In this document: positions 8,312-48,949 of the stretch, one piece after another | Numbering within the stretch: the stretch's first letter is position 1 | Layout: the number at the start of each line of letters is the position of its first letter | Source: Parapedobacter soli | Lineage (GTDB): Bacteria > Bacteroidota > Bacteroidia > Sphingobacteriales > Sphingobacteriaceae | NCBI RefSeq assembly: GCF_025460835.1 | Contig: NZ_JAMXAY010000034.1 | Span: 1 to 56,912 of the forward strand | DNA: 56,912 nt | Direction of reading: 5' to 3' | The notes under the pieces: model-generated | Databases searched by the model: none | Told to the model about the DNA's origin: nothing | The model's input: the letters and a program-made list of their open reading frames with translations, nothing else | Translations under genes and position numbers: made by a program

Positions 8312-8377
8312 CAAAAATAGATGGAGTATGCCTATTTTCTTTATACAATATTATCATTTGCATGGCGCATTTTATCA
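8312..8377 (-). promoter_or_regulatory. Promoter with AraC-type operator (site E), upstream of nagX-susC-susD
   Basis: The plus strand at 8312-8319 is CAAAAATA, which reads TATTTTTG on the minus strand, a perfect -7 box. Exactly 21 bases further begins TTATACAATATTATCA (8341-8356), 12 of 16 matching the shared half-site TTATAGGATGTTAGCG. A second, weaker half-site starts 21 bp later at 8362; the string TTATCAT recurs at 8351 and 8372. The operator position was predicted from the spacing in sites A-C and then found. The leader to the nagX ATG is long, about 85 bases. Confidence 0.6.
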
Positions 8378-8484
8378 TGTTACCCAACTAACAACACATT
8401 GATTTACAGAATGTAAAAAAGATTAATAACAGGTAACCACTACATTAATAAACAATGAATTTACCCATAGTCATTGGCCAACGA

Positions 8485-10731
8485 TTATTCTTTTATCGGG
8501 GCTTCGATAACCCCTAGGTATCTACCCATCCAATACGGAAACAGCCAGATGTCGCCAGCGCTGTTTTCAGCTGCGCCATGGGTACCCCCATCCAGTGTGA
8601 ACCGATTAGCATTATGGCGGGATATCTTCAATTCATCTGGAGGTAATACCTCCGCGGTGGTCTGACCCCGGAAATTGGGCGCCACGTGTTCAATGTCTTT
8701 CCGATGGCTATTCGTAACAGTCCATTGGATCAGGTCGAGCGGATATTCCTTCAGATACCATACGGCCTCTTTCAGATCAATGGAGTCTGTGCCGGTAATC
8801 GCAGTGAAAATATTCCACGCGCCTTCCTTTTCGGGTCTTTCCGCTTCCCAATGATCGCGGATGGCCTCGCCATATTTCGATTTGAGCGTATCATTGAACG
8901 CATACCGGTACAACCCCCAGTAGCCTGCAAAATACATTTCGTCATCCGAATGGTTCCACGCACTCGAAAGCATCTGGCTCCAATCGTCGGCGCCATCCGG
9001 CGCCGTTCCGATTTCTGCCATCGGGCGCAAGAGATTCTCCAGGTACCCATGGTTGTCCATCAGATCGAAAGCGGTTTCGCGATATATGGGCTTACCCGTG
9101 AAGTGATAAGCGGTCTGGAGCATACCGATGATATTGGACGAATTCAGTTTCCGGTCGCCCACGTTCGTGGGGAATGCATTGACGTACTCGGGGTTCCACC
9201 GACCCCAGGTGGTGGGCTGTCCGTCATAGTCTACCAGATAAAGGTCGTGCTGTACAATATGCCCCATCAAGGTATCGATAAGACGAATGGCCTTCTGCCG
9301 CGTTTCCTCGTGATCTACCAATTCGGCGATTACACCGAATGCAAAGATATGACCGATCGCCTCATCACTACTGGTCGTGGCCTTCCAGTACCAGTCGGGG
9401 TGGTCTACCAGCTGCCAGCGCTCGGGGTCGGAAAGTATATCGCGGGTATCCCCTGTTCCGCGCCGCTCAAAGGAACGCGCCGGAAAACCTGGAACGGGGT
9501 TGATATCATATAACCGGCTCATGGCATCCAACGACTCCACGCAATAGTCCAGTGCCTCTTGCTCACCCGTGGTTGCATAGCGGAACGCTTCCGCAGCTAG
9601 GTAAAGCGACGTCCATAGTCCGTCATTGTCGGAATCCCCTAGATAGCCGGTACTCAGATCACCTTCCTGCATGCCTACGAGTGTGGCATTGAAACCATTC
9701 CGGATGTGCCTCTCCCGTACCTGTTGTTCATAATACATGGCCTTTTCATGCAGGGTCATTTCTTTGAAATGGATAACACCGAGCCCACCATCGGTCAATA
9801 ACAACACCGAAGCGTCCGGTCCAGCGGCGATGTCCACCACGTGGTCGCTCGGCAACCAACGCTTGCTCGCATAATATGCGATATCATCTCCTTCCCGCAC
9901 CACGAAAGCTCCTTTGGAAGTACCGAACCAAGAATTCCCATCAATCAGTTTCACCACGGTGATATCCGTCCACGGAAGTATCCGCTGGATATCCGCAGCT
10001 ACTTCACCACGTTCCAAATCATAGCGAAAATAGCCATCGGACGTACCCACAACCAGCTCATTACGGTAATCGTCAACATCGAAAGCCGTCAGGTTCGCGC
10101 CGTCATATATTTTCTCCAATGAACGCGTCGGGGTAGTAAACCGGTACACGCCATCTTCCACAAGTAAAAAAAACAGTGAATGATCTTTGGGGTGGGCTAC
10201 CATGTCGACAACATCACTACCCGAAACCTGGCCTTTCCAGGCAACGACCCCATCCTGAATGAAGTGTACAGCACGCCCGTCGGTCGCCAAAAACTCCTGC
10301 GCATCGTTGGCGGCGAAGACAGTCGGTTCTTCCAATTGATGCTCCACAAACAATCGCCCGGACCAAGCATTGCTGAAAACCGCCTGTTTATCGAGATAAA
10401 CGAACTCGTCCTTGCAAAGCACCATATCCACGATTGCCTTTGCCGACATAAACCGGTACGTATTGTCTGTTACTACGCTACCCGGGTACAGGAACCGTCC
10501 GTCACGCAGGTGTTTGAGCCCATCCGATGCGAGCATTTGCACTTTCCCGTCGCGGTCAGCATGTACCCGTTGCAATTGCACGCCCTCCTCACTGAAAAGG
10601 TATTTCACACTGTAATCCTGCATAAATACAGTATCGGAATAGGCCGTGCCCTGCCGAGGTCCTGGTTTACCACAGGCATAAGTCCCAAACGCAATCAATA
10701 ATAGTAATCGTATATTACGTGTCATGTTCAT
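8485..10731 (-). CDS. Unrecognised lipoprotein: N-terminal beta-propeller plus C-terminal alpha/alpha-toroid-like domain
   Basis: I do not recognise this 748-residue protein as a named family. It starts with a lipoprotein signal (lipobox TYAC at about residue 20). Residues about 50-330 show short repeated strands such as FRYDLERGEV, SWFGTSKGAFVV and DASVLLLTDGGLGVI, consistent with a beta-propeller. Residues about 340-740 are mostly helical with LWTSLYLAAEAFRYATTGEQ and GMLQTAYHFTGKPIYRETAF, the pattern of six-hairpin (alpha/alpha) glycosidases or epimerases. It could be an uncharacterised hydrolase or lyase anchored at the cell surface. It starts 39 bp after the stop of the BNR gene and probably belongs to the same operon. 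Either of two ATGs two codons apart may be used. Confidence 0.75.
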   Translation of the reverse strand: MNMTRNIRLLLLIAFGTYACGKPGPRQGTAYSDTVFMQDYSVKYLFSEEGVQLQRVHADRDGKVQMLASDGLKHLRDGRFLYPGSVVTDNTYRFMSAKAIVDMVLCKDEFVYLDKQAVFSNAWSGRLFVEHQLEEPTVFAANDAQEFLATDGRAVHFIQDGVVAWKGQVSGSDVVDMVAHPKDHSLFFLLVEDGVYRFTTPTRSLEKIYDGANLTAFDVDDYRNELVVGTSDGYFRYDLERGEVAADIQRILPWTDITVVKLIDGNSWFGTSKGAFVVREGDDIAYYASKRWLPSDHVVDIAAGPDASVLLLTDGGLGVIHFKEMTLHEKAMYYEQQVRERHIRNGFNATLVGMQEGDLSTGYLGDSDNDGLWTSLYLAAEAFRYATTGEQEALDYCVESLDAMSRLYDINPVPGFPARSFERRGTGDTRDILSDPERWQLVDHPDWYWKATTSSDEAIGHIFAFGVIAELVDHEETRQKAIRLIDTLMGHIVQHDLYLVDYDGQPTTWGRWNPEYVNAFPTNVGDRKLNSSNIIGMLQTAYHFTGKPIYRETAFDLMDNHGYLENLLRPMAEIGTAPDGADDWSQMLSSAWNHSDDEMYFAGYWGLYRYAFNDTLKSKYGEAIRDHWEAERPEKEGAWNIFTAITGTDSIDLKEAVWYLKEYPLDLIQWTVTNSHRKDIEHVAPNFRGQTTAEVLPPDELKISRHNANRFTLDGGTHGAAENSAGDIWLFPYWMGRYLGVIEAPIKE

Positions 10732-10770
10732 CTATTGAGTGATAAAAAATTACGGCGGCCGCGACAACCC

Positions 10771-11946
10771 CTACGGTCTTACCGCCACATATTTGATTGT
10801 CTTCCGGCCATTGTCCGGATGGAAGGAATAGGTCATATGGAGCACTCCATCTTGTCCTTGGATCAGCGACGGATACGAATACCTTCCTGATTTGGAGGCA
10901 TCGTATTCGATGGGGAATTTCACCGGCCACGTCTTTCCTTCATCGGTTGATAAGTATAGGCTCAACCGGTACCGGCCGTCGTCGACATCGTTGCCCAGCA
11001 TGGCCCATCTGCCATCTGCCAGAACCACCACATCTACACTGGCACCGTTGGGGATTTCCGTTTTGCGCGCAACGGTCCAGCTCCTCCCGCCGTCGAATGA
11101 CTCGCTCACCTGCACACGTGTGGGTGCATCTCCGCTATCCCGCATGTAGGCAATTATACGGCCATCCTCTCGCTGCGCCAATGTGGGTTGGATAGGTCCC
11201 CTCCCCACTATGGGTAGGCTTGGCAACCAAGACACGCCCCCATTATCGGAAATTGCGACCATTGAAAAATTGAACCCATCGGAATACAGTGGTAACAAGA
11301 TCCGGCCATCGGCGGTGATAAGCGGCTTGATACGGGTCATCCACCCCGTGCTCCGCTTGGTGACATCCGTACTGGCATCGATGATCATCTCGTCGTATCG
11401 TGGCGCGTATTCCGACCAGCCATGGTGGGTAGGTGGGAGTTCCTTGAACCCCTGCACAACCGCTTCCGCGAAATCCTCGCCGGGCTTGAGGAGTATGTTA
11501 TCCTGCCATTCCCACACAGGCGCCCCCATGTCACCATATTGAATGGTGGACCGTACACGCAAAACCGAGTTCTCCCATTTATTGGCCTGTACGGCAATCC
11601 ATACCAGAAACAACTTATCTCCCGCCATGAAGAGCACCGGATTGCAATCGGGCAGGTGGGGCGTATCCGCTAGCTCGAAAGGCTCGCTCCAATACCGGCC
11701 TCCGTTTTTCTTTCGTGCTCCCATGATCCGCACATCGTCTGCAGTACGTTCCCCACTGCCCTGGAACCACGCGAGCAACAGATCTCCATTCGGCAACTCC
11801 ACCACGCTGCTTCCGTGCACATGCTGCGCCTGCAAGGGAAACACCAATACCGAATCAGTAACGGTTACTTTTGAGGTACCTCCTTGCGCATTAGCAAGCA
11901 CAAAACCGGTAAAGAAGTAAAAAAATGTCAATATCAGTCTTTTCAT
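10771..11946 (-). CDS. Secreted BNR-repeat sialidase-fold protein (first copy)
   Basis: A 391-residue exported protein of the BNR_2 (PF13088) sialidase superfamily, normally annotated exo-alpha-sialidase. A signal peptide ends at about residue 20 (ANAQ). Asp-box-like loops of the six-bladed propeller are visible: SDNGGVSWLP, SFDGGRSWTV and STDEGKTWPV. The opening HGSSVVELPNGDLLLAWFQGSGE is typical of the environmental branch of the family. I cannot confirm the arginine triad of true neuraminidases, so activity on sialic acid should not be assumed; relatives with this fold act on other sugars. It sits 29 bp after the upstream phosphoesterase gene, in the same operon. Confidence 0.8.
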   Translation of the reverse strand: MKRLILTFFYFFTGFVLANAQGGTSKVTVTDSVLVFPLQAQHVHGSSVVELPNGDLLLAWFQGSGERTADDVRIMGARKKNGGRYWSEPFELADTPHLPDCNPVLFMAGDKLFLVWIAVQANKWENSVLRVRSTIQYGDMGAPVWEWQDNILLKPGEDFAEAVVQGFKELPPTHHGWSEYAPRYDEMIIDASTDVTKRSTGWMTRIKPLITADGRILLPLYSDGFNFSMVAISDNGGVSWLPSLPIVGRGPIQPTLAQREDGRIIAYMRDSGDAPTRVQVSESFDGGRSWTVARKTEIPNGASVDVVVLADGRWAMLGNDVDDGRYRLSLYLSTDEGKTWPVKFPIEYDASKSGRYSYPSLIQGQDGVLHMTYSFHPDNGRKTIKYVAVRP

Positions 11947-11975
11947 GGTTAATCATTATCCAGCGTTGCCATCGG

Positions 11976-13757
11976 TTATTTATGGATACGAAAGGTATCC
12001 CGCACGTTCCCTGTCGAATCCATGCACACGTAGTCCAGCTTCCGCCCGTCGATTCGGAGGTGCTGATACAGGTATCCTTCGTTTAAACGTTTTGCCGCGT
12101 AGGGTTCTATAGTGCCCGACTCGTTCTTACCCTTCGTACCCACGGACATAATATACGTTGTGCCTGCGGTCATTTCTGGCTGAGATTCCCCTCTCTTCAG
12201 CGGGTTTGTACGCAGGTAGTAATGGAAGTGCCCGTTCATCACCATATCCACCCCATATTGATCAAACAGCGGCACCCAGTCCGCAACGATGTCTGGATAG
12301 GGCTCCTCGGATGTATAAGGGGGGAAGTGGAAGACCACAAATTTCCAAACAGCATCGGTGGCCTGCAGTTGGTGGGCAATCCAATCCTTCTGCTCCGCAA
12401 CGGAAAAACTAACCACATCAAGCATAAGGAATAACGCGTTTTCATACCGGAAGGCGTACGTAAGCCCGGATGGCAGACCTGCCGGGCCATTCTGGGGATA
12501 GGCCAGTGTGCTTTGGTAACGCGCCGCGCCCAGCCCGTCCTGGCTGTCGTGGTTTCCAGGTACCGCCATCAGCGGCGTCCGACCAAATACACCGTTGGAA
12601 TATCCAAATAAGGTATCCCAGTCGTCACCGTGCAGACCTGTATTGACCAAATCACCCGCTAGGACGTAGAAGGCAGTTTCGGGGTAACGCACGGCGGCGC
12701 GCTGCAATAGCGCTCCCCATTTTGGATCGTTGTGTACATCCCCGAACCAGGTAAACGCAAACCGGTTGTCCGCATCGGCCGTTTTGAAATGCAACGTGTC
12801 CGATATGGCACCGTCATGTCCTACCATATAAAAGTAGGTTGCCCCCGGCGCCAGCCCATCCAGCGCTGCGGTGAACCGGCTGGTATACCGATCATTCCGT
12901 AGCTGCCGATCCTCCAATAACTGGCGTTTAGCCTCGATAAAAGCCGTATCTGTGGCATTTTCCTGCCAGTATTTTATCCACGAGCCGGCCACCGTCCGGT
13001 CGCAACGCCACTGTACCACCATGCCCGTCGACGGGTCTTCGGGCAATGTTAATGTAATCTGGTCCGGCACAACACCCGAAGGGAAGTCGGTATACCGAAA
13101 GCCTTCCACTACATGGGCCTCCCGCGCACGGCCACGTATGGTCGGCAACAATCGTTGGCCCCGCAACTCATGGGGAACGTCCGTCAAGACTAATCCATCC
13201 CAATCCAGGTAAGTGAATGCGCCGGTGTCCAATTCGGTAATCCGTTGATCACGTGGGAAGATTGGGGCGATTTCCAGGTTATCGCTCGGATTTATGGATG
13301 CGACACTGACGAAGTAGACTGGCCGATGCTTGTCGAATCCATTAATGCCGAGACCCACCTCACCCGCTGCATACTCCTTTTGCCATACTTCATAGGTATA
13401 CAGCCCGTTAGACACCATTAGCTCCGTCTTCCGGAACCCTTGGCCGGTCAACCAAAACGGGATCTCCCGTTGTGCGGTATCCCGCATCACGGACACGACG
13501 GCTGGCACATTCACCTCGAACTTCCAATAGGCGGTTGCCAGCGTGTTTTTTTCCTGTGGCAAGATAACCCCTAGTACAAAAGCATGGCTGATGGTATCCA
13601 GTTCGGCCGATGTCAGCTGCTCATACAGCCGGGTAACCACATCGCCCATTACGCCCGCCACGGAATCCCGGCGGGTATCCTGCACGGGCGCGCACACCGA
13701 CATACCCATGGTTAACGATATAGCTAATAAACTAAAAAGGCGAAAAATCGTATTCAT
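11976..13757 (-). CDS. Secreted metallophosphoesterase with N-terminal Fn3-like domain (purple-acid-phosphatase type)
   Basis: A 593-residue periplasmic or secreted calcineurin-fold phosphoesterase. After a signal peptide (about 1-22) come about 180 residues without a recognised domain, then an Fn3-like region around 210-310 with MVVQWRCDRTV and GLAPGATYFYMVG, then the catalytic domain. The metal-binding motifs are present in order: FGDVHND, AGDLVN, PGNHDSQDG, VFHFPPYTSEE and NGHFHYY. This domain order is that of bacterial purple-acid-phosphatase-like enzymes that release phosphate from organic esters. It lies 18 bp after the glycerophosphodiesterase gene, suggesting sequential diester then monoester cleavage. 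The substrate is inferred only from context. Confidence 0.88.
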   Translation of the reverse strand: MNTIFRLFSLLAISLTMGMSVCAPVQDTRRDSVAGVMGDVVTRLYEQLTSAELDTISHAFVLGVILPQEKNTLATAYWKFEVNVPAVVSVMRDTAQREIPFWLTGQGFRKTELMVSNGLYTYEVWQKEYAAGEVGLGINGFDKHRPVYFVSVASINPSDNLEIAPIFPRDQRITELDTGAFTYLDWDGLVLTDVPHELRGQRLLPTIRGRAREAHVVEGFRYTDFPSGVVPDQITLTLPEDPSTGMVVQWRCDRTVAGSWIKYWQENATDTAFIEAKRQLLEDRQLRNDRYTSRFTAALDGLAPGATYFYMVGHDGAISDTLHFKTADADNRFAFTWFGDVHNDPKWGALLQRAAVRYPETAFYVLAGDLVNTGLHGDDWDTLFGYSNGVFGRTPLMAVPGNHDSQDGLGAARYQSTLAYPQNGPAGLPSGLTYAFRYENALFLMLDVVSFSVAEQKDWIAHQLQATDAVWKFVVFHFPPYTSEEPYPDIVADWVPLFDQYGVDMVMNGHFHYYLRTNPLKRGESQPEMTAGTTYIMSVGTKGKNESGTIEPYAAKRLNEGYLYQHLRIDGRKLDYVCMDSTGNVRDTFRIHK

Positions 13758-13775
13758 ACCTGGCTTATTTGGTTG

Positions 13776-14645
13776 TCATGGTTGTGATTCAGACCTTCCT
13801 CGTATAAACACAACCATTTTCTCCGGGAAGTCCGTTTGTACAACATTGATATATTTCATCTGTTCGAACAGCTTCGCATACCCCCCGTGGCCGGCGGCTT
13901 CCTCCTGATCCGGTGTCCCCAATGCATTTGCCCAAATACGTATCGGACTACGTTGGGTAATGGCATGGAATAAGCTATCGTTATAATAAGAAGCGTCAAT
14001 ATGAACGATATCGGTGAGACCCGATTTTATGATTTCATCCAATTGTTCGGTATCGTACGCGCGGGGCATGATTTTGATACGCGGATCGTATGCGTGCAGC
14101 GTGGCCATTTCCGTATAGTCATAGAGGAAAAAAATCACATGGTCCGTCACGTCCAAATCAGCAATCTGCCGATAGGCATCAAATCGCGCCTGCATACCAT
14201 CTGCCTTGAAATCGATATCCACGAGTATCTTGCCTTTCGCCCGCAATAGTGCTTCCTCCATGGTAGGTATATGATATGCGGTAACTTCGCCATGATTGGT
14301 CAACCGGATTTGCTTCAGCTCTTCATAAGTCTTTTCTTTAACCTCGCCCGTCCCGGTTGTGGTGCGGTCCAAGGTCTTGTCATGCATCAAGACGAAGACA
14401 CCATCCTTGGTTTGCCTGACATCCAACTCGACGATGTGTGCCCCTGCTTTGATAGCTTCATCGATTGATGGCAACGAATTTTCCGGAACCGATAGGTGGG
14501 CACCCCGATGCGCAGCCACCAATACGGTATTGGGCTCGTGATGGTATCGATGCCAAATATGGTCTACCTGTGTTCGTTGTACCGTGCAGGAAACTGCCGT
14601 GATCAGCAACAGTAGATAACTAAACAACCTATTTCTCGATTTCAT
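13776..14645 (-). CDS. Glycerophosphodiester phosphodiesterase family lipoprotein
   Basis: A lipoprotein of 289 residues with the GDPD TIM-barrel. The lipobox is TAVSC near residue 22. The catalytic signature is intact: AAHRGAHLSVPENSLPS, then IVELDVRQTKDGVFVLMHD and the downstream HD loop TLDRTTTGTG. Members hydrolyse glycerophosphodiesters such as glycerophosphoinositol or glycerophosphocholine to glycerol-3-phosphate and an alcohol; some act on diester-linked polymers. The ATG at 14645 is chosen because it gives a clean lipoprotein signal. An ATG 11 codons earlier is possible. It lies 42 bp after the PhoPQ-related gene, in the same operon. Confidence 0.9.
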   Translation of the reverse strand: MKSRNRLFSYLLLLITAVSCTVQRTQVDHIWHRYHHEPNTVLVAAHRGAHLSVPENSLPSIDEAIKAGAHIVELDVRQTKDGVFVLMHDKTLDRTTTGTGEVKEKTYEELKQIRLTNHGEVTAYHIPTMEEALLRAKGKILVDIDFKADGMQARFDAYRQIADLDVTDHVIFFLYDYTEMATLHAYDPRIKIMPRAYDTEQLDEIIKSGLTDIVHIDASYYNDSLFHAITQRSPIRIWANALGTPDQEEAAGHGGYAKLFEQMKYINVVQTDFPEKMVVFIRGRSESQP

Positions 14646-14687
14646 TGACTTCAAATTTACACTATAGACAAGGTGCAAAGAGATTAA

Positions 14688-16103
14688 CTAGTTAACGAAA
14701 AAGGAGTTACTATCACCTACGAAAACCCGGGTACTTTGGGTGTAAAGTGCTCCATTGGCATCGCGGTATTTCAAGTCCACGTAAAACGCTTTGTAACCCG
14801 ATTCGGGCAAGGTAGCGGTGACCTTCACTTTCCGTTTGTGTGCCAGATGCAAATCCTCCTTCACCCACGTTTCATCCCTAAAATCCTGGTCTTCCGAAAC
14901 AGCGCTCCAAACCACCGCACCTTCCAACCTCGGTTTTGTCGCCTTAATGTTCAATTTCAATTTATCCTTGCGTTCCGTCACTTTGTAATCAATGACCGGA
15001 TAGGGTTTTCCCTGTAAAGTAAATCCCCAAAAAGATGAAAGTGCTTGGAAAGCCTGCTTCTTGTCGCCAAGGTCATGCCCTTCGTTGGGTACGTAGTGGA
15101 TGTAATCCGGCCCAGGGATGCTGTCGATGTAATGTTTCACAGCATCGATTACCCAATATTGGTCATTCGTACCCATAAAAAGCATTTTTGGCTTATCGAG
15201 TAACCATCGGTAAGCGTATGGATCAATCATCTGAGCTAACGTACGGCCGCGGTCGCTTTCGATATCCTGTACAAGACCAAGGGCGACATAATCCTGTATT
15301 TGCGGGCTATATTCATTCCACACGTCGACTTGGTAATTGAGGTTCACCGGCATATTCAAAACATCGATGACCATCGGTGCGAACGCTTCCACCCGTTCAT
15401 CCTGTGATGCGGTCAGCCAGGTTGTCCAACCACGCTTCGAAAGGCCTGAAACGACGAACCTCGACACCGGTTTGGAAGAACGGCTCGCGGCGATCTCTTG
15501 CATCGCATCCATCGCCCGTACGGCACTTTTTACCATCGGGAAGAGCAAAGGCCATGTATAATCACCATCCTGTTGGAACTGATGCAAGGTGTACGATATT
15601 AGCTCATCTTCCACCAAACCGTTATATAGTGGTTGGTTGGGCACTTGCCGAAGGACAGCCGCAACGGCTCGGTTGGTCACCGCAATTTTGGCCATGTCTT
15701 GGATAAGGCTATTCGTAGCAAGGTCGTGCCATTCGGGCATGGCGGGGTTATCCTTCTGCATACGGCCGCTGCTGACAAACAACAATCCACCGTCGTAGGC
15801 CACTTCCTTGGGTATGATCACATTGAGCTGGTGTGTCCATGTATGCTCCCGCCAACGCTGGGAAGTAAGCAATACCTGGAAAATCGTCCCTTGGTCGGAC
15901 ACCAAACTATCCCTGATTTCCCATTTATAGGACGTATCTCCGTTTCCGAGGTAGCTTTGTAACGCCGTTGCTGGTGTCACCTGCCCATTTCCCTGACCAA
16001 AAACAGCCGTTGGAAATGAGATAGCCCACCAAGCCACCAAGCATAATCCGCCATGGCGTATCTTACCGCTAATCATCTTAAGCACAGTCATTGTCGATTC
16101 CAT
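14688..16103 (-). CDS. PhoPQ-activated pathogenicity-related family alpha/beta hydrolase
   Basis: A secreted protein of 471 residues matching the PhoPQ_related family (PF10142). The signal peptide ends near residue 38 (AVFGQ). Family landmarks are TPATALQSYLGNGDTSYKWEI, PMVKSAVRAMDAMQE, the nucleophile region VVSGLSKRGWTTWLTASQDERV (Ser within SGLSKRG) and the late histidine in PNEGHDLGDKK. The family has an alpha/beta hydrolase fold and no settled substrate, despite the name taken from Salmonella. An 86-bp gap separates it from the upstream BNR gene; I did not find the shared operator there. Confidence 0.87.
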   Translation of the reverse strand: MESTMTVLKMISGKIRHGGLCLVAWWAISFPTAVFGQGNGQVTPATALQSYLGNGDTSYKWEIRDSLVSDQGTIFQVLLTSQRWREHTWTHQLNVIIPKEVAYDGGLLFVSSGRMQKDNPAMPEWHDLATNSLIQDMAKIAVTNRAVAAVLRQVPNQPLYNGLVEDELISYTLHQFQQDGDYTWPLLFPMVKSAVRAMDAMQEIAASRSSKPVSRFVVSGLSKRGWTTWLTASQDERVEAFAPMVIDVLNMPVNLNYQVDVWNEYSPQIQDYVALGLVQDIESDRGRTLAQMIDPYAYRWLLDKPKMLFMGTNDQYWVIDAVKHYIDSIPGPDYIHYVPNEGHDLGDKKQAFQALSSFWGFTLQGKPYPVIDYKVTERKDKLKLNIKATKPRLEGAVVWSAVSEDQDFRDETWVKEDLHLAHKRKVKVTATLPESGYKAFYVDLKYRDANGALYTQSTRVFVGDSNSFFVN

Positions 16104-16189
16104 ATACTATCATTTTCCACCGGACACTAAATAAGCCATCCTTTATTAACCCTTGTTTAATTAGATACGAATATTTTATGCATGTTGTA

Positions 16190-19292: not shown

Positions 19293-19302
19293 ATGTCAAT
19301 AG

Positions 19303-39433: not shown

Positions 39434-42400
39434 ATGCTCAAGCAGCTGTTTTTGGTTCTATTCATTTTGATTGCAGCTACATGCTATGGTCAGGCTCCTC
39501 TGGATTTCAGAAATTACCAGGTTACCGATGGACTATCCAGCAATACCATCACCTCTGTATACCAGGACCGGATGGGGTTTATGTGGTTTGGGAGCCGGAA
39601 CGGACTGAACCGCTTCGATGGGCAGCGGTTCCACACATTCAAGCACGACCCGAAAGATAGTACCAGCATCGGAAGCAACTCGATCTTCAGTTTACACGAA
39701 GATTCCCAAGGCCAGCTTTGGGTAGGCACCTATCAGGGTATCTACCGCTTTGACCCGCAATACGAAACTTTCCAGCTATTTCCTGAAATCCCGGCTGGGG
39801 AAATCCGTTACATCCATGGGGACCAACAGGGCAATAGCTGGATTGTCAGCAACCTGAACCTGTATCAATACGATCCAGCAACGGGAAAGGTGACGCAGCA
39901 CCATTTTTCGGGCGATCAAACGATTAGCTTACATGCTTCGGAAACCGGTTCGATTTGGTTGGCTACCAGCAAAGGAATCGTCAAACGGTTTGATGAAAAA
40001 GAACAACGCTTTATCGAATATCCCATCCAGGCACTTTATGGGAAGCCTACATCTTCCATCAAAGCCCTCTGCGCATTGGGAGATACAGCATTGCTCGTGG
40101 GAACGATGAATGAACTGCTGTACATGGATATCCGCGCATCAACCGTAGTAAGCGCACTAACAGGTCCAAACCCGCTTAATATCCATGTACACACCATTTT
40201 CAAGGAGAACGAACGGATCTATTGGATTGGCTCCGAGTCAGGATTACTACGTTACGATGCCGCTTTGCAAACTGGCGAACTCATTAGCAGGCAACCCACA
40301 AATCCCTATTCGCTCAGCAATAACATTGTGTCGGCGATATGCAAAGATATGGAGGGCGGTATATGGCTTGGCACTTATTTTGGCGGTGTCAATTATTTCT
40401 CGCCCCACTACAACCGGTTCCGGAAGTATTTTCCCGAACCGGGCCAGCCGAGCCTAAGCGGTGAAATTGTCCATGAAATCACGAAAGACCGGTATGGAAA
40501 TCTTTGGATAGGCACGGAAGATGCCGGATTAAACCGCCTGAATCCAGCAACCGGCGAGATCACCGCTTTCCTTCCTGCGTCTTCGCCAGGCCACCTTACC
40601 TATCACAACATCCATGGACTGCTGGCGGATGGTGATGAGCTGTGGGTAGGCACTTATGAGCATGGGATTGACGTGCTGGACGTGCGGACGGGAAAGGTAA
40701 TCCGGCATTACCGGGCTGCTTTTGACGGAAAGTCGTTCACCAGTGACTTCATCATCACCCTTTATAGGCGTAGTAATGGGGACATCCTCGTAGGTACCTG
40801 GAATGGGCTTTTCAAGTACCTACCCGTAACGGACACCTTCTCTCCGCTACCGTTCTTCGATGGGCATATCCAAAGTATTCATGAAGATGGGGCAGGTACA
40901 CTGTGGGTGGGCACCTATGGCTCGGGGGTATTTTACCAAAATACGCAGACGGGCAAGGAGGGACATTTTCAGCATCAAATTAATCATCATGGCATACTGG
41001 TAAACAACTACGTAAACCATGTGTATGGCGACCGGCACGGGCAGCTTTGGTTTTGTACGGAAGGTGGGCTCACCCGCTTCGACCCGATTACCGAAAGTTT
41101 CCAACACTATACCGTGGCGGATGGCTTGCCCGACAACCAGGTCTTCCGTGTCCTCGAAGATGACACGGGTAGTTACTGGGTGTCTACAGGCAAGGGGCTG
41201 TGCCGCTATGATGCATCACAAGATGCGTACGAGCGGTTCCATATCGACCACGGATTGCCTACCGAACAGTTCAACTACAATTCCTCATTCAAAGATACTA
41301 ATGGCACGCTTTATTTCGGAACGTTGAAGGGACTGGTCAGTTTCCGGCCACGGGATTTCAGCAAATCCCAGCATATTCCGCAGATCTATATTACGGGTTT
41401 GCAGATCGATCACCGTACGGTCGGCTTGCGTGATCCCGAGAGCCCGTTGAAAAAGGCCATGACCTACACGGATGCGCTGACGCTGCCGTTCAATAGTACC
41501 AACATCAGTATTGATGCGGCGGTAATCAGTTATGTGATTCCCTCCATGAACAGGTATCAATATAAAATGGATGGCATTGATAAGGAATGGGTAACGGCCC
41601 AGCAAGGGCATCCGATCAATTACAGCAGGCTTTCTCCCGGCCAGTACACGTTTCACCTACGGGGGGCCAACCATGAAGGCCTGTGGGGCGACCACGAGCG
41701 GATACTCCATATTACCGTCACACCACCCTTTTGGCTTTCGGGATGGGCGTACTTCCTGTACCTGGTTGTCGTTGGTGGCATTGTAGCCGTCGTACTCCGC
41801 TACTATTTCCTAGCACTCAACGAAAAAAACAAGCGTAAACTGGAACAAGTGAACAGCAATAAAGAACGCGAACTTTACCATGCGAAAATCGAATTTTTCA
41901 CCAACGTAGCACATGAAATAAGAACCCCCTTGACGTTGATCAAGATGCCGTTGGACAAACTGTTGGCCACTTCCCACCGCCATGAGGATGACCAGGAGCA
42001 GCTCACCCTCATTGAGCGAAACACCAATACGCTAATCAGCCTCACCAATGAACTGCTGGACTTCAGGAAAGCGGAGGCCAATAAGCTCAACCTCAACTTG
42101 GTCAAAGCCAATGTCAATGAGCTGGTAACCGAGATATATCAATCTTTCATACCATTTGCCGAAAAAAGAGGCCTTGATTACCAGTTGCTCCTTCCGGCAA
42201 CCGCCATTACCATCGCGTTGGATAGGGAGGCGGTGAAAAAAATCCTGAATAACCTAATCGGTAATGCGCTGAAGTACGCTGCCTCAACCGTAACGGTAAA
42301 CCTATTATCCGTGAAGGAGACAGAAAGCTTGCTACGAATCGAATGCTACAACGATGGGCCACCAATACCTGCGTTATATCACGAAAAAATTTTCGAACCC

Positions 42401-43426
42401 TTCTTCCGTGTTCCAAACCGCTCGAAAGAAACCGGAACGGGCATCGGTTTATCGCTCGCCCGCTTCCTGGCCGAGTTGCATCAGGGCAATTTGGTGCTTG
42501 ACCGCCAAACAGATCCGGGTGCATTATTTGTTTTGTCACTACCGACCAACTTGGAAGAAGATATCCGAACACTCCAGGATTTTGCACCGGTAACGAACGA
42601 GGAATCCGGTGATTTAGCTGATGATGTGAAACGCAATGACCAGCGGCCTTCGCTCCTGATCGTGGAAGACAACTGGGATATTATCCACTACCTGCAACGT
42701 GAACTCGCCGGCAACTATAAAGTACTGAAGGCTTCACACGGGCAGGAGGCACTGAACTTATTGGCCCAGCACGAGGTCCACCTAATCGTTACCGATATCA
42801 TGATGCCCGTAATGGATGGGATTACTTTGTCCAAAACCGTAAAAAACGATCTGCGGTTCAGCCATATCCCCATCATCCTGTTGACTGCCCAGGACACCTT
42901 GAACACCAAAATAGAAGGGCTTGAAGTGGGGGCTGATGCCTACCTATCCAAACCATTCTCCATGCAGCATCTGGTCGCCCAGATCGAAAACCTATTGGCC
43001 AACAGGCGTATCATCAAAGAACATTTCTCGAGCTCACCGCTGGGCCATCTCCGGTCCATTTCGACATCAAAAGCCGATCAGACCTTTCTGAAAAGTCTCA
43101 ATGAGGTAATTGACGCTCACATGGTTGAAGAAGCCTTTGACGTCGACAAACTCGCGGCGCTGATGAACATGAGTAAGCCTACGCTGTACCGGAAAATCAA
43201 GGGATTATCCGACCTGACACCAAACGAGTTGATCAACCTATCCAAATTGAAGAAAGCGGCCGAACTGTTGGCAACGGGAGACTATAAGGTCAACGAGGTG
43301 GCGCATCAGATGGGTTATACGACGCCAAGTAACTTCTCCCGGGATTTCCAGAAGCAATTCGGCATGAGCCCCTCCGCGTTTATGCAAAACGTTAAGCCGA
43401 CGGTCAATTCATCCGATACCCGATAA
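39434..43426 (+). CDS. Hybrid two-component system sensor-regulator (HTCS)
   Basis: A single 1330-residue protein combining sensor, kinase, receiver and DNA-binding parts, as in Bacteroidota polysaccharide regulators. In order: signal peptide (1-20); a periplasmic double propeller of Reg_prop repeats (about 21-680, many WFGS, LWVGTY and IWLGTY phrases); Y_Y_Y domain (about 690-760); a membrane helix (about 766-795); HisKA with His827 in VAHEIRTPL; HATPase with N-box NNLIGNALKYA and GTGIGLSLA; receiver with Asp near 1120 in VTDIMMPVMDG and LSKPFS; AraC-type HTH (about 1225-1328, VAHQMGYTTPSNFSRDF). It diverges from the dextran-type operon and is expected to sense its oligosaccharide. All catalytic motifs are intact. 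Confidence 0.95.
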   Translation: MLKQLFLVLFILIAATCYGQAPLDFRNYQVTDGLSSNTITSVYQDRMGFMWFGSRNGLNRFDGQRFHTFKHDPKDSTSIGSNSIFSLHEDSQGQLWVGTYQGIYRFDPQYETFQLFPEIPAGEIRYIHGDQQGNSWIVSNLNLYQYDPATGKVTQHHFSGDQTISLHASETGSIWLATSKGIVKRFDEKEQRFIEYPIQALYGKPTSSIKALCALGDTALLVGTMNELLYMDIRASTVVSALTGPNPLNIHVHTIFKENERIYWIGSESGLLRYDAALQTGELISRQPTNPYSLSNNIVSAICKDMEGGIWLGTYFGGVNYFSPHYNRFRKYFPEPGQPSLSGEIVHEITKDRYGNLWIGTEDAGLNRLNPATGEITAFLPASSPGHLTYHNIHGLLADGDELWVGTYEHGIDVLDVRTGKVIRHYRAAFDGKSFTSDFIITLYRRSNGDILVGTWNGLFKYLPVTDTFSPLPFFDGHIQSIHEDGAGTLWVGTYGSGVFYQNTQTGKEGHFQHQINHHGILVNNYVNHVYGDRHGQLWFCTEGGLTRFDPITESFQHYTVADGLPDNQVFRVLEDDTGSYWVSTGKGLCRYDASQDAYERFHIDHGLPTEQFNYNSSFKDTNGTLYFGTLKGLVSFRPRDFSKSQHIPQIYITGLQIDHRTVGLRDPESPLKKAMTYTDALTLPFNSTNISIDAAVISYVIPSMNRYQYKMDGIDKEWVTAQQGHPINYSRLSPGQYTFHLRGANHEGLWGDHERILHITVTPPFWLSGWAYFLYLVVVGGIVAVVLRYYFLALNEKNKRKLEQVNSNKERELYHAKIEFFTNVAHEIRTPLTLIKMPLDKLLATSHRHEDDQEQLTLIERNTNTLISLTNELLDFRKAEANKLNLNLVKANVNELVTEIYQSFIPFAEKRGLDYQLLLPATAITIALDREAVKKILNNLIGNALKYAASTVTVNLLSVKETESLLRIECYNDGPPIPALYHEKIFEPFFRVPNRSKETGTGIGLSLARFLAELHQGNLVLDRQTDPGALFVLSLPTNLEEDIRTLQDFAPVTNEESGDLADDVKRNDQRPSLLIVEDNWDIIHYLQRELAGNYKVLKASHGQEALNLLAQHEVHLIVTDIMMPVMDGITLSKTVKNDLRFSHIPIILLTAQDTLNTKIEGLEVGADAYLSKPFSMQHLVAQIENLLANRRIIKEHFSSSPLGHLRSISTSKADQTFLKSLNEVIDAHMVEEAFDVDKLAALMNMSKPTLYRKIKGLSDLTPNELINLSKLKKAAELLATGDYKVNEVAHQMGYTTPSNFSRDFQKQFGMSPSAFMQNVKPTVNSSDTR

Positions 43427-43658: not shown

Positions 43659-43942
43659 AAACTACATGTAGTTTTCTCTTAACTACATGTTGTTTGCCGC
43701 TAACTACATGTAGTTTATCTCCATTTACATGTAATCTGTTTGCAACAACATGTATAAAGCCACGGATTACGTGTCTTTAGACACGATGACATGGTAGTTA
43801 TCAAAAAAAGCAATGTTGTTTACCCTGCATTACATGTATTTATGCCGGAACTACGTGTCTTTGGAGATAAACGACATGGATGCAGGCACAGAATACATGT
43901 CATTGCGCTCGCTTTTCATGTCTTCCTTTCCGATTTACGTGT
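43659..43942. repeat. Array of 14 ACATGT-centred units with 21-bp period
   Basis: ACATGT or a one- or two-base variant starts at 43664, 43685, 43706, 43727, 43748, 43769, 43789, 43811, 43832, 43853, 43874, 43895, 43916 and 43937. Eleven of thirteen steps are exactly 21 bp; the other two are 20 and 22 and cancel. Units 1-3 carry the palindrome ACTACATGTAGT or a close variant; between cores the 7-8 bases vary freely. Stops interrupt the frames I read through units 1-6, so this is DNA-level repetition. It lies between convergent genes, and the last two units form the end of the symporter gene. Confidence 0.85.
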
Positions 43943-45487
43943 ACATCCCAACCGGGCCATCCCCGAGCCCACCAGCGAAATCACCAACGTACCCACCACG
44001 ATGATCATATTCGCATGCAGCGGATACCGTAGGTAACTGTATTGCTCGGGTATCAAATACGAGAACGTCATCCATAGGATTACCAAAACACCCACAATCA
44101 CCGCAACGGCCGCATCGTTATTGTTAGCCTTCTTGCTGATAAGGCCCAATAAAAACAGGCCAAGCATGCCGCCGGCAAATATGCCCGACAATTCCCACCA
44201 GACATCAAGGATGCTCTTTACCCCGATCATGCTTATCCCAGTAACGATGCCAAGTACTCCAAATACCCCCGTAGCGATGAATAACATCCGCAACGCTTGC
44301 TTATTGGTACTCTTACGGTTAAAATAGCGTTTATAGATATCTTCGGTGAATACGGTGGCCGATGCATTCATCCCGGAACTGATGGTGCTCATTGCCGCTG
44401 CCATAATTGCGGATATGACCAAGCCCAGTAAACCGACGGGCACCATGTTTACCATAAAATGGGGCATCACCTTATCGGCATAGTCTTCGGCTTGCAACGT
44501 CGCGGCAAGGGTGCTGATTTCGCTTTCCGTGGCACTTCCGGGCAACCGTTCAGCAGCAGCTTGCAGCCGGATGGTCTCGGTCAGGTCGGGATTTTGCGCA
44601 TAGTATGCATAAAGCGCGGTTCCGATAATAAAAAACAATAAAGAAATGGGGATATATAACTTTACACATAGCCATACAGACCTCGCTGCTTCCTTAGCAG
44701 AGGTAGCGGTGTGGTACCGTTGCACGTAATTCTGGTCCATACCGAAGTTATTGAGGTTGATAAAAAAGCCGTATAGCAGAATCACCCAAAACGACGAACC
44801 GACAAAATCCATATCAAAACTACCTAAACTGAATTTGTGGTCGGCCATCCCAACGTCTATGATACTGGAAACACCCCCATCCACGTTCATCACCACCAAA
44901 TACAAAATCAACAGACCGCCGAAGGTCAGCAGGATACCCTGTACCACCTCGGTCCAGATAACGGCTTCAATACCGCCCATCACCGTATAGATAACGATAC
45001 AGAAACCGGTGACGACCATAATGGTTGTCATGTCATATCCGGTGAGTGCCTGCAAGCTTAGCGCGATCCCGAAAAAGATGGATCCCATGCGCGCCAACTG
45101 GGTCAGCAAAAAGCAAACCACAGCATAGGTGCGGGCCCATGCACCAAACCGGTGTTCCAAATGCGTATAAGCAGAAACATCGCCTGAGGTACGGTAAAAC
45201 GGAACGAAGTACTTCACCGCCGCCCACGCGGCAAGCGGCATGGAAAGGCTGAATACCAACGCATTCCAGTTAGTTCCAAACGCCTTTCCGGGTACCCCGA
45301 GAAAGGTATTGCTGCTGAGGAAGGTGGCATACAACGAGATACCTACCGCCCAACCGGGTATCATGCCGGAGGCTTTTGTGAATTGTTCTGAACTTTTGTT
45401 TTTCCGCGAAAACCATACACCCACTAATAGCATGGCCAGTAGGTAGATGATGATGACGGTAATATCAATAACGGGAAGATTGTTCAT
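43916..45487 (-). CDS. Sodium:solute symporter (SSS family), probable sugar importer
   Basis: A 523-residue inner-membrane protein with about 13-14 hydrophobic helices. It follows the SSS pattern: LLVGVWFSRKNKSSEQF in the first loop, GWAVGISLYATFLSSNTFLGVPG in helix 2, AHLEHRF-like YTHLEHRFGAWARTYA, and GGIEAVIWTEVVQ. Closest to the SGLT/NIS-like sugar group seen beside kinase and isomerase genes. It is 82 bp after the kinase gene and has its own promoter with the shared operator (site C). Its last nine residues (CTRKSERKT) and stop codon are encoded by repeat units 13 and 14 of the adjacent array, so the C-terminus has probably been rewritten by the repeat. Confidence 0.9.
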   Translation of the reverse strand: MNNLPVIDITVIIIYLLAMLLVGVWFSRKNKSSEQFTKASGMIPGWAVGISLYATFLSSNTFLGVPGKAFGTNWNALVFSLSMPLAAWAAVKYFVPFYRTSGDVSAYTHLEHRFGAWARTYAVVCFLLTQLARMGSIFFGIALSLQALTGYDMTTIMVVTGFCIVIYTVMGGIEAVIWTEVVQGILLTFGGLLILYLVVMNVDGGVSSIIDVGMADHKFSLGSFDMDFVGSSFWVILLYGFFINLNNFGMDQNYVQRYHTATSAKEAARSVWLCVKLYIPISLLFFIIGTALYAYYAQNPDLTETIRLQAAAERLPGSATESEISTLAATLQAEDYADKVMPHFMVNMVPVGLLGLVISAIMAAAMSTISSGMNASATVFTEDIYKRYFNRKSTNKQALRMLFIATGVFGVLGIVTGISMIGVKSILDVWWELSGIFAGGMLGLFLLGLISKKANNNDAAVAVIVGVLVILWMTFSYLIPEQYSYLRYPLHANMIIVVGTLVISLVGSGMARLGCTRKSERKT

Positions 45488-45519: not shown

Positions 45520-45585
45520 TAAAGATAATGGCTTCATTTGATAACTGGCTCTACGATGTTTGCGCCTATTTATAGGATATTTGCG
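45520..45585 (-). promoter_or_regulatory. Promoter with AraC-type operator (site C), upstream of the symporter
   Basis: TAAAGATA at 45520-45527 reads TATCTTTA on the minus strand, 7 of 8 to the -7 consensus. After 21 bases lie CTCTACGATGTTTGCG (45549) and TTATAGGATATTTGCG (45570), 21 bp apart; GATGTTTGCGCC and GATATTTGCGCC differ at one base. The second half-site starts at the kinase stop codon. The symporter thus has promoter control separate from the kinase gene. Confidence 0.7.
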
Positions 45586-47234
45586 CCCGCCTGGGCATCT
45601 GCCAGCTGCTGGTAACGATGATACAGTTGGCGGTACACCGCAACGCGGTCTGGCCTCGGGAGGTATTCTTGCTCAAACCCGGGCGACATCGCTACCTGCG
45701 CTTCGGCGATATCGGTGTAGATACCTGCCACCACCGCGGCATACATGGCCGACCCCAACGCACAGGCCTGTTCAGTTTTCACCGTCTTTATCGGCCGTTC
45801 GAGCACATCTGCCAATACTTGCATCACATAGGGAGATTTTTTGCTGATACCACCGGTAGCGATGATTTCCTTCACAGGAACACCTTCCGCTTCAAAGCGG
45901 TCCACGATGGCTTTGGAGCCAAAGGCCGTCGCCTCTACCAACGCTTTGAACAGCCGTGGCGCGTCGGTACCAAGTCGGATACCGGTGAGCCAGCCGCTGA
46001 GTGTAGGGTCGACATCAGGCGTACGCCTGCCATTCACCCAGTCCAGTGCCACCTCGTCTGTAACGGCTACCGGAAGTTCCGCTGCTTCCCGGCTCAATCC
46101 CGCCAGTATACGGTTGGTCAGGGTATGTTGTTCAAGTTGGTTGAAGCTACCATCCAACAAGTCAGTAATCGGATAGGATAACAACCGGGCAAACCATTGA
46201 TACAGGTCGCCGAAAGCCGACTGCCCGGCTTCCATACCCAACATTCCCGGGATGATAGATCCGTCGACCTGACCGCATATCCCGTTGACCAATTGGCTAC
46301 CATATTGGTCGTTTGGTGCGATCAACATATCGCAGGTGGATGTACCGATAACCTTCACCAAGCTATAGGGACTGATCACAGCGCCCACGGCCCCCATGTG
46401 TGCATCCAGCGCACCTACCCCTATTTTCGTATGCCTGGGCAGTCCGGTACGGTCGGCCCACTCGGGCGCGATGATGCCCGCGGCTACATCTGATGTATAC
46501 GTTTGGTGGAACAACCGATCCCGGATACCTTCCAACCGCGGGTCGAGGGCGGTCAGGAAATCCTGCGACGGGAGTCCACCGAATTCGTCGTGCCACATGG
46601 CTTTATGGCCTGCAGCACAACGGCTGCGCTTGTTAGCGTGGACGTCATCACAGCCACAGAGCAATGCGGGTATCCAATCGCAATGTTCCATCCAGGAATA
46701 GGCCCCTGCCGCTACAGCATGGTCGGTGCGGATAATATGAAGCAACTTTGCCCAAAACCACTCGGATGAATAACTACCGCCGGAATACTTCGTATAGTCC
46801 ACTTCCCAACGACGAGCCAGCTGATTGATTTCTTCGGCTTCGGCAATGGCGGTGTGGTCTTTCCACAGCACAAACATGGCATTGGGGTTATCGGCAAATT
46901 CGGGAAGCAAGGCAAGGGGTGTACCCTGGCGGTCGACAGCCACCGGGGTAGAGCCCGTTGTGTCTACTGATAGCCCCTGGATGCTGTTCACCGTATCATC
47001 GGAAAGACCCGAAAGGACATCCCGGATGCAGGCTTCCATGGCTTCGATATGGTCTAGGGGGTGCTGGCGGAACTGCGAACGCCCATCGTCGCAATACAAT
47101 CCTTCGCCCCATCGACGGTAGTGCGTTATGGCATCATTGATTTCCGAACCGGTCTCCGCATCCAATAATAGGGCACGTACGGAGTCTGTTCCGAAATCCA
47201 GCCCTATCACGTAGTTCTCACCTGCTTTGCTCAT
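45570..47234 (-). CDS. Ribulokinase-like FGGY carbohydrate kinase
   Basis: A 554-residue cytoplasmic sugar kinase close in length and motifs to ribulokinase (AraB). Visible are the phosphate loop [34 protein letters not shown] typical of the AraB group, [12 protein letters not shown], the catalytic Asp region [13 protein letters not shown], and the ATP-site [20 protein letters not shown]. It would phosphorylate a ketopentose or ketohexose made by the isomerase whose stop codon overlaps its start by 4 bp. No ribulose-phosphate epimerase or aldolase gene is nearby, so whether the substrate is L-ribulose, D-ribulose or another ketose is open. Confidence 0.87.
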
Positions 47235-48856
47235 TCGCCTGAAATATTTACGTCGCCACAGAAATGTACGGTTATACCCAGCTCATCCAATGCCGCTGCC
47301 TTGATACGGCAGGCCCGGTGCGCCAATGACTCATCATCCGCATACACCACGTGGATGTGGTTGGCTTGGTGGCGGGCCATCAACTGGTCGCGCCCTACCC
47401 CATCCAGCACCGCGTGCATGATGGGCCATTCGGGCGAAGTGGATTGCCAGCGGCGCTGTGTTTCTGCTTCGGGCAGACTTACGGCTTTGCCCACGCCCAA
47501 ATCGGCTTGCAGCCGGCCATTCCGAACGTAAATGCGGCTCCAAACGATAGGGCCGGGCTTGCTTACCCCGCGCAGGGTGCCACCGCCCAGCCTGAAGTAC
47601 ATGGGCGACTGCCGCCAGCTGCTTGCCGAAGCATAACCACCATCGAAATGGGCTGCGGGCACCGCACCGGAGATGAGGAACACCCATACAAAATCATCGA
47701 TGCCCTCACCTGTGTAATGTTCGCCCCACCGGATATCGTGCAGTGTATTTTCACCGCCCATACCCAGTTCGTTCCAAAGCCGGTAGGTAACCAATGCATC
47801 GATACCGGCACACTCATCCACCTCATTGAAATGTGGAATGGCCGTTCCGGCAAATAGTTCTTGTCCGGTTTCGGAATAGACCGGTGGCCGTTCCGTGTTA
47901 TTGAGCAAACCTTCCACTAGGTCGCTGGCCACGGTAAGGTCCTTCAATCCCTGTTGGTATTGGATGCCGATGGTATCGCAGCCGAATTCGGCCGCGATAC
48001 GCACCGCCGCGATATACATTTTGCACTGTTCAAGCGTTTGCCTACGGGTGAGCTCGGTGTGTTCATCGTCGCCCCACTTAAAGGCCATCCCCCGTTCCAA
48101 CAGCCATGCCAGTACGGCCTCCGCATCATCATCTTCCACCGAGCGCATACGGGCATACAATGCCGACTGGCTAAGCCGCTCCTTAAATATGCCCGTTGCA
48201 TGGAGTAACTCGTCCGGCACGATGGCGTTGTACATGCCCATGCAACCTTCGTCAAAAACCCCCATGATTGCCTTCGCATCGCGGAGCCGACGTGCAAACG
48301 ATCGGCCGGCATCTTCATCGGCCGTAGGGATTTTAGCCAGTGCGAAGGGGGTCACATGCCTGACGTCATGTTTTACAGTGCCTTTTTGCAACCATTCGTT
48401 GAGGCCACTGCTGAAAAAATCGTCGGTGAAATCCGCACTCCACAGGGTACTGTAAGCAACCCCCGCCTTGGTAAGCGACCCGTTGAGGTTGAGCATGCCC
48501 ACCAGGCCGGGCCACTGGCCGCTCCAATTGGCTACCGTAAGGATAGGTCCACGATGGGTGGTCAGCCCGGCCAATACGTGATGGGTGTACTGCCATACAC
48601 TCTCCGCAACAATCAGCGGTGCATTGGCAGGTATACCTTTGAATACCTCAATACCCATGCGTTGGGAGTCGATAAACCCATGCTGCTTTACCGGATCGTA
48701 GGCGTGTGCCCGCCTCACGGTCCTACCCAATTTTTCGATGGCAGCAATTAGTTTCGTTTCCATCGCTTCCTGCGCTTGCCAACAAAGTTGATTAGCGGCG
48801 AGTCGCAAGTCGCCGCTCGCAACCAGCCAAATTTCTTGATGTGGATGATTATTCAT
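47231..48856 (-). CDS. L-fucose/L-arabinose-isomerase-fold sugar isomerase
   Basis: A 541-residue cytoplasmic protein of the fucose isomerase family. Features are [40 protein letters not shown] (substrate-groove region of this fold), [19 protein letters not shown] with a candidate metal Glu and Asp, and a late histidine-rich [15 protein letters not shown]. These aldose-ketose isomerases use manganese. It differs from standard AraA in length and sequence, so it should not be called arabinose isomerase. The ATG at 48856 is chosen; the open frame reaches 18 codons further with no family similarity. It heads the isomerase-kinase-symporter operon under operator site D. Confidence 0.82.
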
Positions 48857-48883
48857 ATATAAGATTATAAAAAAGGGACGCAA

Positions 48884-48949
48884 CAAAGGTGGGGGTATTG
48901 CCTTTGGCATTGTTGGTGGTTATTGCCTACTTATTGTACGATTTTAGCA
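48884..48949 (-). promoter_or_regulatory. Promoter with AraC-type operator (site D), upstream of the isomerase
   Basis: CAAAGGTG at 48884-48891 reads CACCTTTG on the minus strand, 7 of 8 to the -7 consensus. After 21 bases come TTGGTGGTTATTGCCT (48913, weak) and TTGTACGATTTTAGCA (48934, 12 of 16), 21 bp apart. The -7 box was found at the place predicted from sites A-C. The site lies in the divergent gap with the AraC gene (229 bp), which also holds a perfect ATCGGA-T-TCCGAT palindrome at 48961-48973. Confidence 0.5.

Follow-up and report, generated by a model that had tools for sequence, protein, structure and literature searches.

Five promoters on both sides of a dextran locus in Parapedobacter soli share an operator probably read by one AraC-family protein

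We report that five promoters on the minus strand of a 56,912-nucleotide (nt) stretch of DNA from Parapedobacter soli (NZ_JAMXAY010000034.1; from here on the window, which is one whole contig of a 5.17-Mb genome) carry one composite operator, present as sites A to E in front of genes for a metallophosphoesterase (A), a DHDPS-family aldolase (B), a sodium:solute symporter (C), an isomerase and a kinase (D), and a NagX-SusC-SusD unit (E). Our data suggest, at a probability of about 0.88, that the AraC-family protein encoded from position 49086 (the 49086 protein) is an activator that reads A to E as one local regulon, with the proximal half-site of each operator standing in for the −33 promoter element; its binding and its activating role are what we infer from sequence comparison. 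Support comes from the co-occurrence of operator and regulator across genomes, from gene order in genomes of the same genus and from the diverged operator letters near paralogs of the regulator. An earlier note on this DNA had proposed six promoters with one operator; five of them exceed chance and are conserved, and the sixth, site F, showed no recurrence in relatives.

On the transcribed strand the shared layout is a distal 16-base half-site, 5 bases, a proximal 16-base half-site, 21 bases and a −7 box (Table 1). All six boxes and all twelve half-sites lie where the earlier note had placed them, with the 21-base gap and the 21-base-pair (bp) period. The box has the consensus TAnnTTTG at A, B and E and is near-consensus at C and D; that of D reads CACCTTTG and thus differs from TAnnTTTG. 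At B and C the distal half-site overlaps the stop codon of the preceding gene, i.e. operator and coding sequence share bases there. Upstream of site E, at 8403-8417, there is also a perfect palindrome (TTTACA-TTC-TGTAAA), which is identical in the congener G004 and partly kept in others, and which may be the site of a second regulator.

A first weight matrix was built from the half-sites of A, B and C, with the box left out, and run on 20 neighbourhoods of AraC orthologs and paralogs. Outside the window it gave 25 matches above the cut, of which 21 have CAAANNT at exactly 21 bases, with the box unscored. The second matrix, covering box and halves, was made from 14 of these 25, all of which have CAAANNTA and stand in front of an ortholog of dhdps (aldolase), ssf (symporter) or metphosB (metallophosphoesterase); the 11 left out were 10 matches at other genes or at no gene and one weaker second ssf match (L030:16691). 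With this matrix A to E scored 62.3, 48.5, 48.2, 18.6 and 10.6 and took the first five ranks among all window positions on both strands, and F scored −9.4. Per first-order shuffle (20 shuffles) the expected number of matches was 0 for A to D, 0.05 for E and 10 for F, so that A to E stand out in the window and F is on par with chance. On the halves alone the ranks were A 1, C 2, B 3, D 4, E 16 and F 103, with expectations per shuffle of 0.4 for D, 4.6 for E and 78 for F, and D and E therefore need the box or conservation in addition. The scores of A to C are partly circular because the training sites were found with the A-C matrix; those of D, E and F are not. A 13-site matrix made from congeners only retained the order A, B, C, D, E, F.

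Conservation was followed in same-genus genomes (congeners G001-G008), with locus maps made for seven of them, G002-G008, and each of A to E was found to recur upstream of the same gene. Specifically, B is present upstream of dhdps in 7/7 of the mapped congeners, C upstream of ssf in five of the seven (G004, G005, G006, G007 and G008), and A upstream of metphosB in all four whose mapped stretch includes that gene (G004, G005, G006 and G007). The stretch between box and distal half-site of D aligns gap-free in 10/10 loci of nine genomes (the window, four congeners and, from other genera, five loci), and in congeners site D is present at the isomerase gene (fuciso) in 4/4 where the gene was found; its box is CAAANNTG instead of CAAANNTA in 9/10 of the aligned loci. 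Site E aligns with the nagX promoters of G004, G005, G006 and G007, and nagX has a site in four of five congeners. For site F, orthologs of the NHL gene behind it were located on other contigs in G004, G006 and G007, and none of the eight ortholog loci scanned gave any score above zero. By comparison, the claim that the 49086 protein controls these units is strongly supported for the isomerase, symporter, phosphoesterase, aldolase and nagX-susC-susD units, and is not supported for the barrel unit with the NHL protein behind F, a site rejected on matrix rank and site-less orthologs.

Whole genomes were scanned with a pattern of 22 fixed letters, allowing up to 3 mismatches, in 38 genomes (24 of the family and 14 at class level). 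The full pattern gave 80 matches vs 7 for its reversed control, and the four in the P. soli genome are A, B, C and E. The half-site word alone gave 4 matches genome-wide vs 6 for the reversed control; a single half-site word is unspecific, and specificity is found only in the full geometry. The fourth match to TTATAGGATNTT in the genome (C35:40496) is at a locus without a full site and was rejected. In Parapedobacter all 26 matches with up to 2 mismatches are on the regulator's contig, at most 47 kb away, and uniformly oriented, pointing away from the regulator gene. Taking at least 65% identity to the 49086 protein as the criterion for an ortholog, the full pattern is present in 13/13 family genomes with an ortholog vs 2/11 without (Fisher P = 4e-5). 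The latter two have one match each, with 3 mismatches, one of which adjoins a 38% paralog. No full-pattern match was obtained in G001, the congener without an ortholog, and the class-level genomes gave four matches in total, in three of the 14, all with 3 mismatches.

The geometry was moreover examined in other genera. In a scan of named genomes, 80 loci of relatives were retained, five of them from Parapedobacter (regulator identity 82-90%); removal of these five left 75 loci from Pedobacter, Hymenobacter, Flavobacterium, Spirosoma, Mucilaginibacter, Olivibacter and others, and the matrix consisted of 13 congener sites plus A, B and C. Above 16 bits the halves alone gave 70 matches, 67 with the box at 21 bases, vs 0 in one shuffle per strand; in the range from 10 to 16 bits there were 55, 43 of them with the box, vs 8 in the shuffle. 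In an offset test anchored on any distal half-site above 9 bits (n = 332), the box was at the predicted distance in 99 cases and in at most 5 at each of 59 other offsets, and the second half-site was at 21 bp in 36 cases and never in more than 2 at each of the remaining spacings between 17 and 32; the other offsets serve as a control that is independent of base composition. A site above 13 bits was found in 60 of the 80 loci. The genes behind the 99 sites (80 loci) are ssf in 40 cases, the isomerase gene in 15, the aldolase gene in 7, metphosB in 3, a SusC gene in 1 and another gene in 20.

These promoters suggest how the regulon might work. Two copies of the DNA-binding domain of the 49086 protein would occupy the directly repeated half-sites, whose starts are spaced by what would correspond to two helical turns, thus on the same face of the DNA. 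With 21 bases between it and the −7 box, the proximal half-site is located where the −33 element of a Bacteroidota promoter would be expected, and the bound protein probably replaces the −33 contact by a presumed direct contact of its own; TTG is present 15-25 bases before the box in 0/16 sites. The operator-to-box distance is fixed, as in class II type activation at a Bacteroidota promoter, where operator and upstream promoter element overlap (99 cases at one offset, 67/70 of the strong matches). Binding of an inducing sugar to the sensor domain would then turn transcription on. In all five cases an in-frame ATG follows 22-84 nt after the predicted transcription start (23256 for A, 18317 for B, 45487 for C, 48856 for D and 8222 for E), and because of these positions the aldolase, isomerase and phosphoesterase starts shift downstream of those of the longest frames. 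Site D, located between the regulator and isomerase genes, may also tune the regulator's own promoter, a form of self-control; that probable promoter was kept in 5/5 aligned Parapedobacter sequences as read by eye.

Several observations weigh against this interpretation. Site E is not significant on its halves alone, and the searches gave no site at the ssf gene of G002 or of G003 (in G003 the symporter gene is close behind the aldolase gene), nor was one listed at nagX of G003, where the gene is embedded in a longer gene run. Among the 80 ortholog loci, 20 have no site above 13 bits within 10 kb, and some of the site-less loci (L154, L184 and L187) do have aldolase and symporter genes; behind 13 of the 99 sites, no start of a gene was identified. 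Of 15 Parapedobacter matches with 3 mismatches, four lie off the regulator's contig or at a distance above 60 kb (G006 C11, G006 C18, G007 C3 and G007 C12:128898). Finally, absence of TTG from 16 sites is expected by chance at about 6% (own arithmetic), and the loss of the −33 element is therefore suggestive only.

A further point on that side is that the 49086 protein might repress the five units, or both repress and activate them. AraC-family proteins can do both, and site D adjoins the regulator's own promoter. The operators, however, stand upstream of the box at a constant gap and occupy the place of the −33 element, which is the position of an activator; since a repressor would presumably need no fixed gap, we favour activation and regard repression or dual action as improbable.

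As the likely reader, the 49086 protein is singled out by its co-occurrence with the operator. It matches the Pfam families HTH_18 (71.6 bits, cut-off 33.6) and HTH_AraC (47.5 bits, cut-off 26.6) and has the AraC-type C-terminal double helix-turn-helix; Cupin_2 scores 24.6 bits, below the cut-off of 27.2, and Pfam gave no kinase domain in its 295 amino acids. Sugar regulators of the AraC family have an N-terminal effector domain of the cupin type. Orthologs are 82-90% identical in the seven congeners and 63-71% in other genera, and the presumed recognition helices (residues 214-228 and 262-276) are identical in six of the seven congeners, with 2 changes in the seventh. The P. soli genome has many relatives of this protein (27 matches at E ≤0.001), any of which could in principle read A to E in its stead. 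The runner-up, however, is only 42% identical, the sites track the 49086 ortholog across the 24 family genomes, and closer paralogs elsewhere already have different half-site letters, which makes a paralogous reader very improbable. Specifically, paralogs with 56% (G002) and 54% (G005) identity are each located beside a SusC gene, and their neighbourhoods have four sites of the same geometry with GTTCAA-type and GTATACT-type halves and a CAAATATC box; these lie in front of SusC and of the gene that runs divergently from the paralog. G004 has a further paralog, of 50% identity. The motif for the four sites was built from three of the four sites and run on five loci, and nothing was found in the other three of the five. 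Other letters in the same frame are expected if each regulator reads its own half-sites. We tentatively consider, giving it somewhat less than even odds, that soluble AraC-type sugar regulators of Bacteroidota share a rigid grammar (half-site, 5, half-site, 21, −7 box) in which the proximal half-site replaces the −33 element and the half-site letters alone vary, along with the recognition helices; its basis is one ortholog group, sampled across many genera, and one group of paralogs from two genomes.

In the window the regulon is split by an interposed segment with a dextran locus, which comprises GH31, a GH family protein, GH66 and SusE/D/C genes. The gene order in G004 is regulator, isomerase, kinase, site C, symporter, one gene, site A, metphosB, further genes, site B and aldolase, followed by one gene, BNR_2, PhoPQ-related, GDPD, phosphoesterase, BNR_2, the gene for the 748-amino-acid protein, site E, nagX, susC and susD. 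This order lacks the dextran genes, and the gap between symporter and metphosB is 1.4 kb vs approximately 20.6 kb in P. soli. G005 has ten target genes from the regulator onward within 19 kb, with the isomerase, kinase and others missing there, and in none of the seven mapped congeners was a dextran locus found at this place. Of 36 other genomes a single one gave GH66, on another contig and with 47% identity. Because of the congener gene orders and the rarity of GH66 we take the regulon to be the older arrangement and the gap the newer, and the dextran locus between the two parts is most likely a later insertion.

The segment also contains the dextran locus's own regulator, a hybrid two-component regulator (HTCS) at 39434, which is a conceivable reader of A to E as it is located in the window and as Bacteroides hybrid regulators also use direct repeats about 21 bp apart (PMC3878776). 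Against it, A to E are kept in seven congeners whose mapped loci have no HTCS (beyond these loci, whole genomes were searched for GH66 only), and there is no A-E-like site in the dextran locus, the best operator score in 23400-43640 being 7.2. Moreover, a different 21-bp repeat precedes the HTCS and its SusC gene: a 59-nt direct repeat (88%) is present at 38455-38513 and 39310-39368, before the dextran SusC gene and the HTCS, each copy having TATCAATTT twice, 21 bp apart. The 59-nt repeats are probably the operator of the HTCS, and a role of this regulator at A to E is accordingly rated lower still than that of a paralog. As to chance likeness, or a search continued until something fits, this is true of F, and D to F were indeed found by prediction with weak half-sites (E being weak on its halves), but for A to E it is already refuted by the offset test, by the specificity seen across whole genomes and by the conservation of the sites at the promoters of orthologs, and it retains next to no probability.

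At the right edge of the interposed segment, in the gap between HTCS and symporter genes (43656-43922), near-palindromes centred on ACATGT are arrayed with a period of 21 bp. The same genome has three more copies of the array (72, 84 and 89%), on contigs C145, C114 and C131, and none was found in the six congeners and three other genomes searched; the array may be a mobile repeat or mark one end of the insertion. Near the contig end, at 37-98, a 32-base repeat is present in two imperfect copies. No Rfam family reached the gathering score in the window.

Table 1. Operators, promoters and genes of the proposed regulon and the segment that splits it
Feature	Position	Strand	Remarks
Site A	23297..23362	-	box 23297-23304; half-sites 23326-23341 and 23347-23362; matrix rank 1
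Site B	18351..18416	-	box 18351-18358; half-sites 18380-18395 and 18401-18416; matrix rank 2
Site C	45520..45585	-	box 45520-45527; half-sites 45549-45564 and 45570-45585; matrix rank 3
Site D	48884..48949	-	box 48884-48891; half-sites 48913-48928 and 48934-48949; isomerase-kinase promoter; matrix rank 4
Site E	8312..8377	-	box 8312-8319; half-sites 8341-8356 and 8362-8377; matrix rank 5
Site F as claimed, rejected	25175..25240	-	score −9.4, rank 26
AraC-family regulator, putative reader of A-E	49086..49973	+	295 amino acids; HTH_18 and weak cupin match
Probable AraC gene promoter	48955..48985	+	TTG, 20 bases, TACCTTAG; 5 bases from end of site D
L-fucose/D-arabinose isomerase-like protein	47231..48856	-	Pfam Fucose_iso_C; ATG 22 nt after predicted transcription start
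FGGY kinase, ribulokinase	45570..47234	-	NCBIfam ribulokinase 721.5 bits, cut-off 428
Sodium:solute symporter (SSF)	43916..45487	-	Pfam SSF; TIGR00813 above cut-off
Unit behind A	18411..23256	-	metallophosphoesterase, hexulose-6-phosphate-synthase-like, zinc dehydrogenase, SDR, AP-endonuclease-2-like barrel (Pfam)
Unit behind B	8485..18317	-	DHDPS-family aldolase, BNR_2, PhoPQ-related hydrolase, GDPD, metallophosphoesterase, BNR_2, 748-amino-acid protein (Pfam)
Unit behind E	539..8222	-	NagX-like acyltransferase, SusC, SusD, AXE1 esterase (Pfam); NCBIfam NagX below cut-off
Interposed segment, outside regulon	23486..43426		NHL and 178-amino-acid genes, dextran locus, HTCS regulator (Pfam)
Probable paralog operators	L042:13846, L042:15589, L043:15046, L043:16745		same box, gap and spacing; other half-site letters

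Judging from gene order, the unit behind A would be one transcript, and the extent given for the unit behind B is likewise that of a presumed operon. Within the former, the longest frame of the zinc dehydrogenase gene (20133-21413) runs back into the hexulose-6-phosphate-synthase-like gene (21137-21877), and by analogy with G004 its true start is probably near 21158. With a SusC/SusD pair and genes for an esterase, BNR_2 proteins and phosphoesterases, the locus has the composition of a polysaccharide-utilization locus. When 20 window proteins were compared with NCBIfam, the cut-off was passed only for ribulokinase, the symporter superfamily and SusC, and there was no name for the aldolase, the isomerase, the BNR_2 proteins, the phosphoesterase or the 748-amino-acid protein. 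A core recurs across the 80 loci: at ≥50% identity and within 10 kb, the aldolase was found in 58 of them, the symporter in 56 and the isomerase in 38.

The five units might constitute one catabolic program, in which SusC/D, the esterase, the BNR_2 proteins and the phosphoesterases would take up a decorated glycan at the outer membrane and trim it, and inner-membrane symport, aldolase, isomerase and ribulokinase would follow. The aldolase keeps, in five sequences, a lysine and a tyrosine that we take to be those expected of a class I enzyme. For the isomerase no relative was found in the PDB by sequence at E ≤0.001, and its structural model (mean predicted local distance difference test score, pLDDT, 87) has L-fucose and D-arabinose isomerases as best fold matches, with 14-17% identity and a template modelling (TM) score of approximately 0.5. 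A 2-keto-3-deoxy sugar acid such as Kdo would fit these enzymes, i.e. symport, cleavage by the aldolase to pyruvate and D-arabinose, isomerase and ribulokinase. Against Kdo, the kinase is rarely nearby (within 10 kb in 7 of the 80 loci) and the one scanned Pedobacter locus has GH2 and GH95 neighbours; for these reasons we assign no sugar, and consider Kdo a doubtful substrate. Among the papers listed for Kdo catabolism and Kdo hydrolases, none dealt with this locus.

The kind of regulation proposed here is already known. The AraC-type RhaR of L-rhamnose catabolism in Bacteroides, Bacillales and Enterococcus has direct repeats with 21-bp periodicity (PMC3870299), and its regulons resemble the present one in having a local AraC-family sugar regulator and in being found by genome comparison. 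Here the genes are others and the sugar is probably another; RhaR of B. thetaiotaomicron has a single-operon regulon (PMC3878776) vs five units here, and the fixed distance to the −7 box seen here is not among the RhaR features found in the available text of PMC3870299. The Bacteroides hybrid two-component regulators, with direct repeats averaging 21 bp and control of SusC/D loci (PMC3878776), have in common with the proposed reader an AraC-type DNA-binding domain, direct repeats and SusC/D control, and differ in that a membrane sensor kinase is fused to the regulator, whereas the 49086 protein has 295 amino acids and no Pfam kinase domain. In Zobellia galactanivorans CgrA is an AraC-family positive regulator of the carrageenan regulon, as supported by a deletion strain and RNA-seq (PMC5698469). 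CgrA too is encoded beside catabolic genes and its regulon includes SusC/D genes away from the main cluster; substrate and genes are different, and support for the regulon here comes from comparison. Primary sigma promoters of Flavobacterium have a TAnnTTTG −7 box (PMC9723704), the consensus also seen at A, B and E, whereas the 16 sites studied here are all without TTG 15-25 bases upstream. No published operator for this regulator group was found in the open-licence literature, among the matches listed.

The comparison names an operator, a regulator and a set of targets, all open to testing, for a regulator group present in many environmental Bacteroidota, and it ties genes of unknown role to one putative program. 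It also points to a regulon that has retained its operators on both sides of a probable 20-kb insertion. A fixed operator-to-box distance combined with changing letters may provide a route to the specificity of many uncharacterised AraC proteins, and if the grammar is indeed shared, the regulon of any such protein would be readable from sequence.

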